Assembly: GCF_020564625.1 (NCBI RefSeq)
Contig: NZ_JAJBZT010000002.1
Location: forward strand, 186,001-250,000
Direction: 5' to 3'
Source: Leeia speluncae
GTDB lineage: Bacteria > Pseudomonadota > Gammaproteobacteria > Burkholderiales > Leeiaceae
DNA length: 64,000 nucleotides
Positions 3,903-19,127 of the stretch are shown here, piece by piece. The number at the start of each line of letters is the position of its first letter. The stretch's first letter is position 1. The translations under genes were made by a program, and so were the position numbers. Below the pieces are notes generated by a model that saw only the letters and a program-made list of their open reading frames with translations, did no database searches and was not told the DNA's origin.

Positions 3903-4454
3903 ATGAGCACCTTGCAAATTGACCGTATCCATCACGTTGCTTACCGCTGCAAAGATGCCAAGGAAACCGTACTTTGGTATCAGAAAATGCTAAAAATGGA
4001 TTTTGTGTTGGCGATTGCAGAAGACCTTGTACCTTCGACAAAAGAACCAGACCCTTACATGCATATCTTTATGGATGCAGGGAACGGCAATGTACTCGCC
4101 TTTTTCGAACTGCCAACGAAGCCCGAAATGGGCAGAGACCCTAATACGCCAAATTGGGTACAGCATATCGCGTTTAAAGTGAAAGACCGTGAAACCTTGC
4201 TGGCGTATAAAGCACACTTAGAAGCCAACGACGTAAAAGTATTAGGTGTGACCGATCATGGCATTTTCCACTCGATCTATTTTTTCGATCCAAATGGCCA
4301 CCGCTTAGAACTAGCTTGCCCGGATGAGCATGAAGTTGAGCAATTAAAACAATTGAATTCAGTCAAGTGGGCGATGCTGGAAGAATGGTCGCAAACCAAA
4401 CGCGCACCGAAACATGCTGCGTTCTTGCACGAAAAAGAGTTTAAAGACGCTTAA
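3903..4454 (+). CDS. Small VOC-superfamily protein, candidate ring-cleavage dioxygenase
   Basis: A 183-residue protein with one vicinal-oxygen-chelate unit of two beta-alpha-beta-beta-beta modules. Four potential metal ligands sit at the classical positions: H11 (IHHVAY), E69 (FFELP), H88 (VQHIAF) and E136 (HRLELAC). GGAG lies 9 nt before the ATG, and the gap to hpd is 12 nt. VOC proteins include extradiol dioxygenases, glyoxalases and epimerases. In this operon every tyrosine-degradation step is present except homogentisate 1,2-dioxygenase, and this gene occupies that slot, so a homogentisate-cleaving role is an attractive inference. It might instead be a glyoxalase-like protein of unrelated function. 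Confidence 0.8.
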   Translation: MSTLQIDRIHHVAYRCKDAKETVLWYQKMLKMDFVLAIAEDLVPSTKEPDPYMHIFMDAGNGNVLAFFELPTKPEMGRDPNTPNWVQHIAFKVKDRETLLAYKAHLEANDVKVLGVTDHGIFHSIYFFDPNGHRLELACPDEHEVEQLKQLNSVKWAMLEEWSQTKRAPKHAAFLHEKEFKDA

Positions 4455-5208: not shown

Positions 5209-5262
5209 ATACCAAATGCATATCTGTTTGCGTATAATGCGCACTTTTCATGCATTTGGTAT
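5209..5262 (+). promoter_or_regulatory. Inverted-repeat promoter of the first exported-protein copy
   Basis: A perfect 13-bp inverted repeat (ATACCAAATGCAT at 5209-5221, ATGCATTTGGTAT at 5250-5262) flanks a -10-like TATAAT at 5233-5238. The right arm ends 4 nt before the ATG at 5267 and occupies the ribosome-site position; no Shine-Dalgarno is visible. A degenerate version with near-identical spacing precedes the second copy. This suggests a dimeric repressor site or an RNA hairpin controlling translation. Confidence 0.6.
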
Positions 5263-5266
5263 AAAC

Positions 5267-6052
5267 ATGTTTTCTATCTACTCTATTCGCCGAGTATTTA
5301 TTGGCGCCCTATTCGCCTTACACCTTGCACCAGCAATGGCCTGCGAACAAACGGATACGCCTAAAAATCAAATTGGCAGTTTGCCTGCCTCGCTCAAATC
5401 AAAAGTTCCTCAAAACATGGGGGTTGAACAAGTTAGCCTGACCACGCTCGCAAACGGCAGCAAAATGGCCGCGGCTATTTTGACCCCGAAAAAATGGTTT
5501 GTGCCTTGTGGGATGGATGAGTTAGCCGCCAACGACCCACTTGAGCGTGTTTTAGTAGTTTGGCAACAATTAGAAACACAATGGGAACAAGTTGGGCGAA
5601 ATTCACAGATGCTGTATTCGATCGATACGGCTGGCGAAACCAATTTGCAATTAGCTTGGACAAAAGGACAATTGCGAGTCCGTCAAGATATGGCGGCCAA
5701 TAGCGCCCTAACCGCTGACCAATTCATTCTGCAACCTAATCCAGCGAAGAAACAGATCAACATTTCAGCATGGACCTCTACGGCTTTAGATGATCCAGCT
5801 TGTTGTGGCAACGGGGATGAAGCCATGTTCAATAAGCTAGATGCTGCTAAGGCAAAATATGGTGAAGATAAAGTGTGCGAAAAAAATGGTTATGCTGGCA
5901 CCATTAACTATGCCACAGGAAAAGTAGATATTAATCGCTGTGAATATGCAAAACCAAAACGTAGTGTATCCAACCAATCTAGCGTGCAAGTCATTGAACT
6001 AACGCAGTTCAAACCGGTGCCTTTTGATCAGCAAAAAGGATTACCGAAGTAA
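5267..6052 (+). CDS. Exported protein of unknown function, copy 1 of a tandem pair
   Basis: A 261-residue protein with an N-terminal signal sequence (basic IRR, then a hydrophobic core ending LAPAMAC). Cleavage could be by signal peptidase I after AMA, or as a lipoprotein at the cysteine, although the lipobox is poor. The mature part has no recognised domain. It shares KKWF, WTKG, YGxxKxCExxGY, NRCEYAKPKR and a C-terminal FDxQKG-PK with the downstream copy. It has three cysteines beyond the shared set (VPCGM and CCGNG), suggesting extra disulfides. The start at 5267 is preferred over upstream in-frame ATGs at 5216 and 5237 because those fall inside the promoter repeat and the -10 box. Confidence 0.75.
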   Translation: MFSIYSIRRVFIGALFALHLAPAMACEQTDTPKNQIGSLPASLKSKVPQNMGVEQVSLTTLANGSKMAAAILTPKKWFVPCGMDELAANDPLERVLVVWQQLETQWEQVGRNSQMLYSIDTAGETNLQLAWTKGQLRVRQDMAANSALTADQFILQPNPAKKQINISAWTSTALDDPACCGNGDEAMFNKLDAAKAKYGEDKVCEKNGYAGTINYATGKVDINRCEYAKPKRSVSNQSSVQVIELTQFKPVPFDQQKGLPK

Positions 6053-6063
6053 CTTTTTTCGCT

Positions 6064-6096
6064 CGCGAGGGTTAGTAAGTGCCACTAACCCTCGCG
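6064..6096. terminator. Long stem-loop between the two duplicated genes
   Basis: A 13-bp perfect inverted repeat (CGCGAGGGTTAGT at 6064-6076, ACTAACCCTCGCG at 6084-6096) with a 7-nt loop, 11 bp after the first copy's stop codon. A T-run lies before the stem, not after, so it is not a canonical intrinsic terminator on the plus strand. Confidence 0.5.
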
Positions 6097-6141
6097 CGAC
6101 AGCCACCACGTAAGAAAGTGGGCTATTCCCACACACAAAAA

Positions 6142-6193
6142 ATACCAATGGCATAATAATTATGTAAAATGATGCTTTACATGTGCTTGGTAC
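6142..6193 (+). promoter_or_regulatory. Inverted-repeat promoter of the second exported-protein copy
   Basis: This is the imperfect counterpart of the element at 5209. ATACCAATGGCAT (6142-6154) and ATGTGCTTGGTAC (6181-6193) face each other around a -10-like TAAAAT at 6165-6170. The right arm again ends 4 nt before the ATG at 6198. The architecture survived the duplication although the arm sequences drifted, which argues for function. Confidence 0.5.
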
Positions 6194-6197
6194 GAAC

Positions 6198-6980
6198 ATG
6201 CTTTCTTTATCCGCTATCCAACGAGTGCTGATCGGTACTTTGCTAGCCTTACCTCTTGTTCCCGTCGTCGCTTGCGAAACGTTTACACCTCCCAATCAAA
6301 TCGGCGAGCTGCCATCTACGCTACAGCCACTCATCCCAAAAAACATGGGTGTTGAAGCATTTAGTCTCACTACACTCGCCAACGGTAGCAAGTTAGCCGC
6401 TGCGATTCTGACACCTAAAAAATGGTTTGTCCCAGAAGGGAGACACCAACTAACCGCCAAAGACCCACATGAAAGAATTTTAGTATTTTGGCAGCAATTA
6501 AAGACAAAATGGGAGCCAATTGGCAGGAGTTCGAAGATACTCTATGCCATCGACTCTGTAAAAATGACTGGTGTCCAGCTATCATGGACCAAGGGGCTAC
6601 TTCATGTTCGTCAGGACATGTGGACAGAAAGCATACGTGCAGCAGATGAATTCATACTGATGCCTAACACGGCGAAACGGCCGATCAAAGTCGTCGCCTG
6701 GACCTCTACCTATTTAGTTGCCCCTTCCTACTATGGCAATGGTGATACAACCATGCTCAATAAACTAGTTGCCGCCAAGGCAAAATATGGCAAAGACAAA
6801 GCCTGCGAGCAGGATGGCTATTCCGGCACCATCGACTACACTAGCGGCAAAATCCTGCTCAACCGCTGTGAATATGCAAAACCCAAGCGCACGCTGAACC
6901 AACAGATAAGCTCGCAATGGATAGCTCTGAACCAATTCAAACCCACAGCGTTTGATCGGCAGAAAGGGATGCCGAAGTAA
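6198..6980 (+). CDS. Exported protein of unknown function, copy 2 of a tandem pair
   Basis: A 260-residue paralogue of the gene at 5267, homologous along its whole length. The signal sequence ends LVPVVAC, which fits a lipobox (VVAC) better than copy 1 does. The shared cysteines are the mature N-terminal one, the one in KACEQDGY and the one in NRCEYAKPKR. The extra cysteines of copy 1 are replaced (VPEGR, SYYGNG). The family is unknown to me. The ATG at 6198 matches the start chosen for copy 1 by alignment of the promoter repeats and leader peptides; a frame-extending ATG at 6183 is possible. Confidence 0.75.
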   Translation: MLSLSAIQRVLIGTLLALPLVPVVACETFTPPNQIGELPSTLQPLIPKNMGVEAFSLTTLANGSKLAAAILTPKKWFVPEGRHQLTAKDPHERILVFWQQLKTKWEPIGRSSKILYAIDSVKMTGVQLSWTKGLLHVRQDMWTESIRAADEFILMPNTAKRPIKVVAWTSTYLVAPSYYGNGDTTMLNKLVAAKAKYGKDKACEQDGYSGTIDYTSGKILLNRCEYAKPKRTLNQQISSQWIALNQFKPTAFDRQKGMPK

Positions 6981-7261: not shown

Positions 7262-8530
7262 ATGCTGAACATGCAGGCTGTAAAAGAATCTACTGCCGGA
7301 TTAAGTGAAATTGAATCTGAGTACATTGCGCGTAGCCTAATGCGCGATAGTCCAACAGTAACGCCACAACATACCTGCTTTGAAGTATTGGATGTGCTAG
7401 CAAGACACCCTGAAGTGATTGGCTTGCCTGTATTAGAAAATGGCTTTGCGATTGGCCTTATTAACCGTGGCATTTTCAATGATGAAATGGCGAAACCATT
7501 TCGCCGCGATTTATATGGTCGTAAAAGCTGTATTGCCTTTATGGATAAGCAGCCGCTTGTCGTGCCAGAAACCATGAGTATTCAAGACGTTTCTTTCAAG
7601 GTAATTGAAAGTGGCGGCAAAACATTGAACGACGGTTTCATTATTGTGAACCCAGAAAACCAATACCTAGGGATTGGCACCGGCGAAGACCTAGTCAAAG
7701 TAGTGAGTTTCTTGCAAGCGGAGAAAAACCGCTTGGTGATGGAAAGTATTAACTACGCTTCTGTGATTCAGAAATCCTTTATGCGTTCTTCACGTGATGA
7801 TCTAGCTTCTATGTTGAAAGACTATTTCATGCACTGGGAGCCACGGGACAAAGTAGGTGGCGATTACTTCTTCTGCAAGAAATTCAATGATGGCTTTTTC
7901 ATGGCGCTAATGGATTGTACCGGCCACGGCGTGCCGGGTGCATTCATGACCTTGATTATGGCTGCGTTCATGGATCACTTGTTGCAAGACAATAACCGTA
8001 CTGATCCAGCGGGTGCGCTTGGCCTAATTAACCGCAAGGTAAAAACTGCGCTTGGTCAAATTAGTGAAGACAACGTAGTGCCTATTCATCCAGAACAACA
8101 CGAGCGTTCGGATGATGGCATGGACGCCGCATTTATCTGGGTAGATCAAGCCAATAACAAAATGGTATTTGCTGGGGCAAAAACACCGTTGTTCTGCTTG
8201 CCTTCTGGGGAAGCAGACTTTGTAGTGGTGGATGGTGACAAAAAAGGCGTTGGCTACACCGATACCCCACTAGATTACGCATGGACCAATAAAACCGTTG
8301 CGCTTTCTAAAGGCGACATGATCTATCTGACCACTGACGGCATTATCGATCAAATTGGTGGTTTAAAGAAAATTGCATTTGGTAAAAAGCGCTTAATGCA
8401 GTTGCTATTGAAACATCGCGTGAAATCGATGGAAGACCAATGTGAAGCAGTGCTTCGCAATTACTACGAATACCAAGGTAATCAGCGCCGTCGTGATGAC
8501 GTGAGCTTCTTTGGATTCCGTCACAACTGA
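7262..8530 (+). CDS. siaA: SiaA-like PP2C-type (SpoIIE) phosphatase with N-terminal CBS-like region
   Basis: A 422-residue soluble protein. Residues about 20-150 resemble a CBS pair (MRDSPTVTP, VIGLPVLENG, DGFIIVNP). The C-terminal half is a PPM/SpoIIE phosphatase with the metal-binding motifs GGDYFF (199-204), MDCTGHGVPGAF (217-228), LTTDGIID and RRRDDVSFFGF. In Pseudomonas, SiaA dephosphorylates SiaC and has a membrane sensory N-terminus; here the input appears to be a cytoplasmic CBS module that may bind a nucleotide. GAAGGAA precedes the ATG at 7262. It is followed by SiaB- and SiaC-like genes, the opposing kinase and the shared substrate. Confidence 0.85.
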   Translation: MLNMQAVKESTAGLSEIESEYIARSLMRDSPTVTPQHTCFEVLDVLARHPEVIGLPVLENGFAIGLINRGIFNDEMAKPFRRDLYGRKSCIAFMDKQPLVVPETMSIQDVSFKVIESGGKTLNDGFIIVNPENQYLGIGTGEDLVKVVSFLQAEKNRLVMESINYASVIQKSFMRSSRDDLASMLKDYFMHWEPRDKVGGDYFFCKKFNDGFFMALMDCTGHGVPGAFMTLIMAAFMDHLLQDNNRTDPAGALGLINRKVKTALGQISEDNVVPIHPEQHERSDDGMDAAFIWVDQANNKMVFAGAKTPLFCLPSGEADFVVVDGDKKGVGYTDTPLDYAWTNKTVALSKGDMIYLTTDGIIDQIGGLKKIAFGKKRLMQLLLKHRVKSMEDQCEAVLRNYYEYQGNQRRRDDVSFFGFRHN

Positions 8531-8549
8531 TTACGCAGAGAGTGTGGTT

Positions 8550-9104
8550 ATGCAGTTAGATCTATTTAGTGCTTTTCGCAATAACGCCGAATTCAACGGG
8601 GTTTTGTTCTATTACAACGGTGCACTGTCTCAAAACGTGATTAACACAATGAGCGACACCTTAAAACAGCGATTGGCACAAGAAGAAGGCACGCAGACAA
8701 AAGCTAGAAAACTATTTTCTAGCTTTATCGAAATGGTGCAAAACGCGCTGTTTTATTCGCCAAACAATCCTGACGTAGAAGGCGAAAAAATCGGCTCGGT
8801 CGCCGTTGGTAAAGATGGCGATAAGTTCTACGTTGTATGTGGCAACTTGGTAGAAAGTAAATACGCAGACCGTATTCGTGAAAAGGTTGAGCCACTTCGT
8901 TCAATGACCTTAGACGAAATTAAAGCGGCGTATCGCACCCAACTAAAAAATGAAATGCATCACGAAGAAGACAAGGTAAGTAAAGGGGCTGGTCTTGGCT
9001 TTTTGACCGTTGCCCGTGACGCCTCTGAACCAATTGAGTATCGACTAGTAGAAGTGCCGACGCATGAAGAACTAGCTTACTTCTATTTAAAAGCAGTCAT
9101 TTAA
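8550..9104 (+). CDS. siaB: SiaB-like protein kinase
   Basis: A 184-residue protein of the SiaB family, with an N-terminal helical part and a GHKL-like nucleotide site: SFIEMVQNALFYSP near residue 57 resembles an N-box, and KGAGLGFLTVARDA near 146 resembles a G-box. SiaB phosphorylates SiaC and is opposed by SiaA. The start at 8550 lies 19 nt after the siaA stop with GAGAG upstream; an in-frame ATG at 8511 inside siaA would add 13 residues. The gene order siaA-siaB-siaC matches the known partner-switching operon. Confidence 0.8.
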   Translation: MQLDLFSAFRNNAEFNGVLFYYNGALSQNVINTMSDTLKQRLAQEEGTQTKARKLFSSFIEMVQNALFYSPNNPDVEGEKIGSVAVGKDGDKFYVVCGNLVESKYADRIREKVEPLRSMTLDEIKAAYRTQLKNEMHHEEDKVSKGAGLGFLTVARDASEPIEYRLVEVPTHEELAYFYLKAVI

Positions 9105-9162
9105 CCATTAAAGAATGTCAGCAAATTGGGAAGAAACGCCCAGTAAATAAAGGATAATTAAC

Positions 9163-9558
9163 ATGCATGATTATTATTTAGCCCGTACAAGCCATAGCCC
9201 AGAAGTGAATTTTCAATTTAGCCGTCATCATTTATCGATGACTGGTGAAGCATATCCTGAGAATGCGAATGATTTCTTTCTGCCGATTTTGGCGCAATTA
9301 AATCATTACCTAAGCTATACCGATCATCAACATATTATTTTTGATTTCCGCCTAACTTACTTCAATAGTGCGGCCACCAAAATGTTGTACACATTGTTTG
9401 GCATGTTAAATGACTCTGCATCCTCTAGAAACCGCATTACGCTAAATTGGTTTCATGATCCAGAAGACGACACCATTCTTGAGTTTGGCGAAGGCGTGCA
9501 AGATGATTTCTTGTCACTCGACTTCCATGCGATTGCAGAAGATTTAGCGGCAGCATAA
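9163..9558 (+). CDS. siaC: SiaC-like regulatory phosphoprotein
   Basis: A 131-residue protein of the DUF1987/SiaC family, with an anti-anti-sigma-like fold (HIIFDFRLTYFNSAATKMLYTL). T72 in NSAATKML is the likely phospho-acceptor by comparison with the family. In Pseudomonas, unphosphorylated SiaC binds and activates the diguanylate cyclase SiaD. No GGDEF gene follows here, so the target must be encoded elsewhere or differ. AAAGGA lies 9 nt before the ATG. A strong stem-loop follows at 9571. Confidence 0.85.
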   Translation: MHDYYLARTSHSPEVNFQFSRHHLSMTGEAYPENANDFFLPILAQLNHYLSYTDHQHIIFDFRLTYFNSAATKMLYTLFGMLNDSASSRNRITLNWFHDPEDDTILEFGEGVQDDFLSLDFHAIAEDLAAA

Positions 9559-17968: not shown

Positions 17969-19072
17969 ATGTCACATTGGAAGTTCATCAAAACCGCCCT
18001 TGCCACCTTGTCTCTAACCCTGTGCAGCTTAACTAGCCACGCAGCCATCACGACCATTAAAGATGTGAATGGCCGTAGTGTCACCCTAGATTTACCCGCC
18101 AAACGCGTCTTGCTAGGTTTTTATATTGAAGATTATTTTGCCGTTGGCGGAAATGCATCGTTTGATAAATTGGCAGGCATGTCTCGCGGCTGGTTTGTTA
18201 GCTCCCGCCCTGCGACTTGGGCACAGTATGTAGCTAGCAAGCCACAACTTCAAAAAGTACCAGATGTGGGCAACGTGCAAGACCAAACTTTCTCGATTGA
18301 AAAGGTATTAGCCAGCCGCCCAGACGTAGTTGTATTGGCCGATTGGCAATACAAAGCACTCGGCCCGGATTTAGCCAGACTAGAAGCCGCTAAAATCCCA
18401 GTGGTCGTGATTGACTACAATGCGCAAACCCTAGAGCGCCATTTGGCGAGCACCCGCATTTTGGGCGAAATTACCGGCGAAAAAGCCCGTGCTGCAAAAA
18501 TCGCCGGTGAATATCAGAAAATTGTAACGGATATTCAACAACGTATCGCCAAAGCCAAACTCCCGAAACCGCGTGCCTATATTGAACTGGGCGATAAAGG
18601 CCCCTCTGAATACAGCTACACCTACGGCAAAAACATGTGGGGGGCAATGGCTTCCTTAGCCGGCGGCGAAAACGTCGCCGCCCCTTTTGTCGAAAACTGG
18701 GGGCCAATTAACCCTGAGCAACTATTGGCAAGCAAACCAGAAGTCATCTTGATTGCAGGTTATGAGAACGTAAAAAGCCCAACCGCAATGCAGATTGGCT
18801 TTGGCATTGATCAAAAAGAATCGATCCAGCGCTTAAAAGGCTTTACCCAACGAAATGGCTGGAGCGAATTGCCGGCAGTCAAGAATAAGCGCGTGTTTGG
18901 TGTTTACCATGGCGCGACACGTAGTATTCTAGATGCCGCCCTGCTGCAATTCTTGGCGAAATCTTTTTACCCAACGGTGTTTAAAGACTACAACCCAGAA
19001 GCCACGTATTTAGGCTTTTACAAACGCTACCTTCCGATTCAGCCAAAGGGCACGTTTGAAGTAAGTTTGTAA
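17969..19072 (+). CDS. Iron-chelate ABC transporter substrate-binding protein
   Basis: A 367-residue periplasmic protein with a signal peptide (cleavage near SHA-AITTI) and a class III (BtuF/FepB-like) binding fold: VTLDLPAKRVLL, then PDVVVLADWQY, KIPVVVIDYNAQ and a C-terminal lobe with PEVILIAGYEN. It would capture a ferric siderophore or haem for the permease/ATPase pair upstream. The ATG at 17969 directly begins the signal peptide; the 93 nt before it in the same frame overlap the Fur box. No TonB-dependent receptor gene is nearby. Confidence 0.88.
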   Translation: MSHWKFIKTALATLSLTLCSLTSHAAITTIKDVNGRSVTLDLPAKRVLLGFYIEDYFAVGGNASFDKLAGMSRGWFVSSRPATWAQYVASKPQLQKVPDVGNVQDQTFSIEKVLASRPDVVVLADWQYKALGPDLARLEAAKIPVVVIDYNAQTLERHLASTRILGEITGEKARAAKIAGEYQKIVTDIQQRIAKAKLPKPRAYIELGDKGPSEYSYTYGKNMWGAMASLAGGENVAAPFVENWGPINPEQLLASKPEVILIAGYENVKSPTAMQIGFGIDQKESIQRLKGFTQRNGWSELPAVKNKRVFGVYHGATRSILDAALLQFLAKSFYPTVFKDYNPEATYLGFYKRYLPIQPKGTFEVSL

Positions 19073-19081
19073 TTGTTATTT

Positions 19082-19127
19082 CCGGTAGATCATCACAGAT
19101 TCAATCAACAGGGTGATGATCTACCGG
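19082..19127. terminator. Convergent stem-loop between the binding protein and dgoA
   Basis: A perfect 15-bp inverted repeat (CCGGTAGATCATCAC at 19082-19096, GTGATGATCTACCGG at 19113-19127) with a 16-nt loop lies between convergent genes. Its right arm contains the dgoA stop codon. It probably ends both transcripts although no U-tract is present. Confidence 0.65.

Follow-up and report, generated by a model that had tools for sequence, protein, structure and literature searches.

A lineage-restricted tandem pair of exported-protein genes in Leeia speluncae with conserved inverted arms around each promoter

In a 64,000-nucleotide stretch of the Leeia speluncae genome (3.78 Mb in 48 contigs), hereafter the window, two adjacent genes encode related proteins with export-signal-like N termini, and each gene is preceded by a pair of inverted arms that encloses a -10-like box (Table 1). 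The locus raises the question of what kind of protein is encoded here, and of whether the arms act as DNA or as a structured RNA leader.

Table 1 Features of the tandem pair, with positions counted within the window.
Feature	Position	Strand	Remark
Left arm, copy 1, ATACCAAATGCAT	5209..5221	+	-35 position of promoter
-10-like box TATAAT, copy 1	5233..5238	+	sequence
Right arm, copy 1, ATGCATTTGGTAT	5250..5262	+	place where Shine-Dalgarno expected
Copy 1 gene	5267..6052	+	exported 261-aa protein, six cysteines
Inverted repeat CGCGAGGGTTAGT / ACTAACCCTCGCG	6064..6096	+	intergenic, after copy 1
Left arm, copy 2, ATACCAATGGCAT	6142..6154	+	
-10-like box TAAAAT, copy 2	6165..6170	+	
Right arm, copy 2, ATGTGCTTGGTAC	6181..6193	+	
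Copy 2 gene	6198..6980	+	exported 260-aa protein, three cysteines

The two proteins are 62% identical and 77% similar over their whole length, and a hydrophobic N-terminal signal sequence can be read from both translations, in agreement with the sequence-only reading, which had described two homologous exported proteins in tandem. The promoter region was duplicated together with the gene, as that reading had also proposed: the alignment score of the two upstream regions was reached by 0 of 1000 shuffles, and the arms have been conserved despite saturated synonymous sites (dS about 2.6, dN/dS about 0.10). On the evidence of these sequences the duplication is old, and the proteins are under purifying selection. 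The inverted repeat between the genes would probably form a terminator-like hairpin. By names taken from the reading of open reading frames, the pair is flanked by a maleylacetoacetate-isomerase-like gene and a SpoIIE-phosphatase-like gene. The latter is followed by two small genes (window 7262-9558), a cluster that we take to resemble a SiaABC-type stress-signalling cluster.

The arms of copy 1 are complementary at 13/13 positions across a 28-nt spacer, and those of copy 2 at 9/13, with the ACCAA/TTGGT and CAT cores kept. From the start of the left arm it is 58 bp to the ATG in copy 1 and 56 bp in copy 2. Because the -10-like boxes follow 24 and 23 bp after that start, the left arm sits where a -35 box would be expected, and the right arm where a Shine-Dalgarno sequence would. 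The right arm stops 4 nt short of the ATG in both copies, and no Shine-Dalgarno-like sequence precedes either ATG, while such sequences are present at the starts at 3903 and 7262. Re-measurement thus reproduced the layout first described, namely arms with these cores around a -10 box and close to an ATG that lacks a Shine-Dalgarno sequence, perfect in copy 1 and degenerate in copy 2 with nearly the same spacing.

Such arms exceed chance expectation. Perfect 13-nt inverted repeats with spacers of 15-60 nt were counted at two positions in the window, whereas 30 simulated windows had 0.0 on average; the second position, at window 19082-19127 (15-nt arms, 16-nt spacer), lies just after a gene ending at 19072. 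Exact TACCAANNGCAT sites number three in the 64 kb, all of them arms of the pair, and the fourth arm matches with one mismatch. Between the copies, 20 of the 26 arm positions (77%) are identical versus 29 of 71 fourfold sites (Fisher p=0.0025). Given the saturation of synonymous sites, the arms thus look to have been kept by selection and not by recency of the duplication. A whole-genome search with a loose arm pattern gave 14 exact matches; three of them fall on the two sites described here, counted on one or both strands, and none of the others combines the arms with a -10 box and a start codon. A wider regulon built on this arrangement was looked for genome-wide and did not emerge.

How the arms might work is best judged by comparing the two copies. 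If they paired as RNA within a long leader, in a hairpin governing translation or premature termination, the strong folding of copy 1 would be accounted for (RNA spanning both arms, -22.8 kcal/mol, z -4.8 versus shuffles), as would a right arm that lies over the ribosome-binding region where the Shine-Dalgarno sequence is absent. However, the corresponding RNA of copy 2 folds no better than shuffles (z -0.3), and three of the four arm pairs changed in copy 2 are broken (A-T to A-C, A-T to T-C and T-A to G-G), the fourth being G-T. Compensatory changes preserving a hairpin, the hallmark of a cis-regulatory RNA, were not found between the two copies, and there was no Rfam match. Moreover, with the -10 box enclosed by the arms, a transcript from that box would lack the left arm; RNAs beginning at the expected start, inside the arms, showed no folding advantage over shuffles for copy 1 or copy 2. 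We consider an RNA hairpin quite unlikely, and the leader part of the sequence-only reading, taken as RNA structure, is not supported. A DNA operator fits better: the changes in the arms are non-compensatory, copy 2 does not keep the hairpin, and transcription is predicted to begin downstream of the left arm. Each arm retains the half-site TACCAA...CAT, and two such half-sites about 40 bp apart are what one expects of a DNA site bound by a protein.

An ordinary promoter shared by descent, with residual homology and promoter constraint but no dedicated regulator, would also leave homologous upstream regions after a duplication, with a promoter inside them. We regard this as doubtful. Synonymous sites have reached saturation, yet the arms are still 77% identical; a perfect 13-nt inverted repeat such as that of copy 1 far exceeds what chance would give; and the conserved bases lie in the arms and not only in the -10 box. 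It is very improbable that a dispersed repeat or small mobile element was inserted before each gene: the inverted repeats of copy 1 are perfect and terminal-like, but the genome holds only two copies, which can be aligned with each other and both precede paralogous genes. Dispersed-repeat and terminator readings of the arms were rejected. Operators of FadR-type GntR regulators have the form TTGGT-N3-ACCAA; the arms share the same five-base half-site, but here the half-sites are oppositely oriented and about 40 bp apart.

Under the operator reading, each copy of the old pair would have its own promoter, with a pair of inverted half-sites (consensus TACCAAnnnCAT, their centres about 40 bp apart) at the -35 position and in the ribosome-binding region. 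Most likely, one sequence-specific DNA-binding regulator would bind the half-sites of both copies and would either repress both alike or, given the absent -35 box, activate them. A point against a shared operator is that the arm spacing differs by 2 bp between the copies.

Turning to the proteins, the signal ends in AMA in copy 1 and VVA in copy 2 and is followed by a conserved cysteine, so that type I cleavage fits both copies and lipidation at this first shared cysteine is weakly supported at best; a lipobox in copy 2 is at best marginal. C26, C204 and C225 are common to both copies, and C81, C179 and C180 of copy 1 are replaced by E, Y and Y in copy 2, which are the three extra cysteines first described. 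AlphaFold models of the proteins were poor (mean pLDDT 42 and 40), and a PDB fold search with the first of them returned only unspecific matches, many to beta-propellers, which we set aside.

The distribution of the pair is narrow. It is absent from both congeners searched (G001 and G002). In G002 the two flanking genes stand side by side, about 450 bp apart, and the pair is missing; in G001 the first of them, the maleylacetoacetate-isomerase-like gene, has different neighbours. Protein and profile searches covering roughly 840 other genomes from the same order, class and phylum (a count taken from handle numbers) found no relatives, nor did searches of genome contigs, viral contigs, phages and plasmids. 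Weak matches in relatives (E 0.04-0.8) did not resemble family members in those reading frames that were inspected. By these searches the pair has so far been found in a single species, and it could have been gained by the Leeia speluncae lineage or lost by others.

The family had first been called unknown. This stands for curated libraries: Pfam, NCBIfam, PHROG, PADLOC and PDB sequence searches with the window proteins gave no match, and a PDB profile match to the SnoaL-like 6x1i (E 0.25) was set aside. Among uncurated proteins, a full-length profile match with moderate support makes a distant family probable. The sequence suggested a resemblance to an exported family in which R-L-L-V and R-N-D motifs come after a DxNxDG loop. 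A hand-written consensus was used only to find real members, and 18 natural ones were collected from relatives and plasmid records. The family has a single FG-GAP/VCBS-like domain and occurs, for example, in Burkholderia, Vitreoscilla, Fusobacterium and Leptospira and twice elsewhere in this genome, at C3:146413-147018 (L033/L052) and C2:326821-327216 (L058); no inverted arm pair lies upstream of these two.

The hhalign match between the window pair and this family is full-length and co-linear, and its score of 25.3 was reached neither by 300 column shuffles (maximum 22.1) nor by 200 block shuffles (maximum 22.3), although shuffle p-values are optimistic here because the family was picked by a motif recognised in the same sequence. 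In an hmmsearch with the family HMM, copy 1 scored above 2000/2000 shuffles and the score of copy 2 was reached by 30/2000. The window pair and the family have in common, all in the same order, the export signal, an LPxx..PxG start, an R-(L/V)-L-V strand, a GRN-like motif, a G-x-L-x-V strand and an INYxTGK-like C-terminal hairpin. They differ in that the window pair has its own cysteine pattern, carries a helix-containing insertion before the C-terminal hairpin and has no acidic DxNxDG loop, the corresponding stretch being degenerate (TLANGSKMA / TLANGSKLA). Since Burkholderia members L046-L048 also have a degenerate loop, it is not a feature by which every member can be recognised.

It is conceivable that the proteins instead form an orphan family in the strict sense, with no relation to the DxNxDG proteins, and we treat this as a tentative alternative. 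Consistent with it, nothing was found in curated libraries or in the other genomes searched, the probability given by hhalign itself is weak (9%), and the match is unstable when single members are left out (scores 18.8 to 28.1, the low end within the shuffle range). Against it stand the full-length co-linear match beyond shuffles with the order of strands kept, and the C-terminal hairpin, which is found in several DxNxDG members. On the sequences compared, we judge relatedness to be fairly probable.

Relatives in the DxNxDG family offer a lead to function. In L043 (frame starting at 913) an N-terminal LprI lysozyme-inhibitor domain (PF07007, E 3.7e-11) is fused to the DxNxDG domain, and L050 directly adjoins an annotated LprI-family gene. 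The L043 fusion ties this uncurated family to lysozyme inhibitors; the window proteins themselves are without an LprI domain. One member of the family matches the XAC2610 model NF047539 weakly (E 0.024). XAC2610 (X-Tfi) of Xanthomonas is an immunity protein that inhibits XAC2609, a lysozyme-like effector of a T4SS (PMC10933484), and a putative orphan immunity protein of Salmonella Typhi has also been linked to it (PMC7400221). XAC2610 and the window proteins are alike in being exported single-domain proteins, but the latter have no NF047539 match at E<=5, and the Ca-binding acidic loop of XAC2610 (PMC10933484) is not evident in them. No gene for a peptidoglycan-degrading effector lies beside the pair, whose neighbours, by reading of open reading frames, are those named above. 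From the ties to LprI and the weak match to XAC2610, a periplasmic inhibitor or orphan-immunity role is a reasonable lead and, by analogy, plausible for the window pair.

Taken together, the explanation that we slightly favour joins three parts: an old, lineage-restricted tandem pair of exported proteins, a shared operator, and descent within a branch of the DxNxDG family. This uncurated exported beta family of single-domain proteins would probably include the mature proteins as a diverged branch, and in the periplasm these may act as inhibitor-like proteins. A bolder version, in which they are species-specific paralogous periplasmic inhibitors or orphan immunity proteins under a private operator whose two half-sites enclose the -10 box, stand in for the -35 box as well as the Shine-Dalgarno sequence and are read by an undescribed regulator, seems unlikely to us. 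The finding is of an ordinary kind, lineage-specific tandem paralogs with a probable shared operator, and not a new kind of system. It is a clean example of paralogs that have conserved a regulatory site while their synonymous sites have become saturated. The pair also points to an uncurated, widespread exported family tied to lysozyme inhibitors and, if the relationship is confirmed, would extend the DxNxDG family to a branch that lost the acidic loop.
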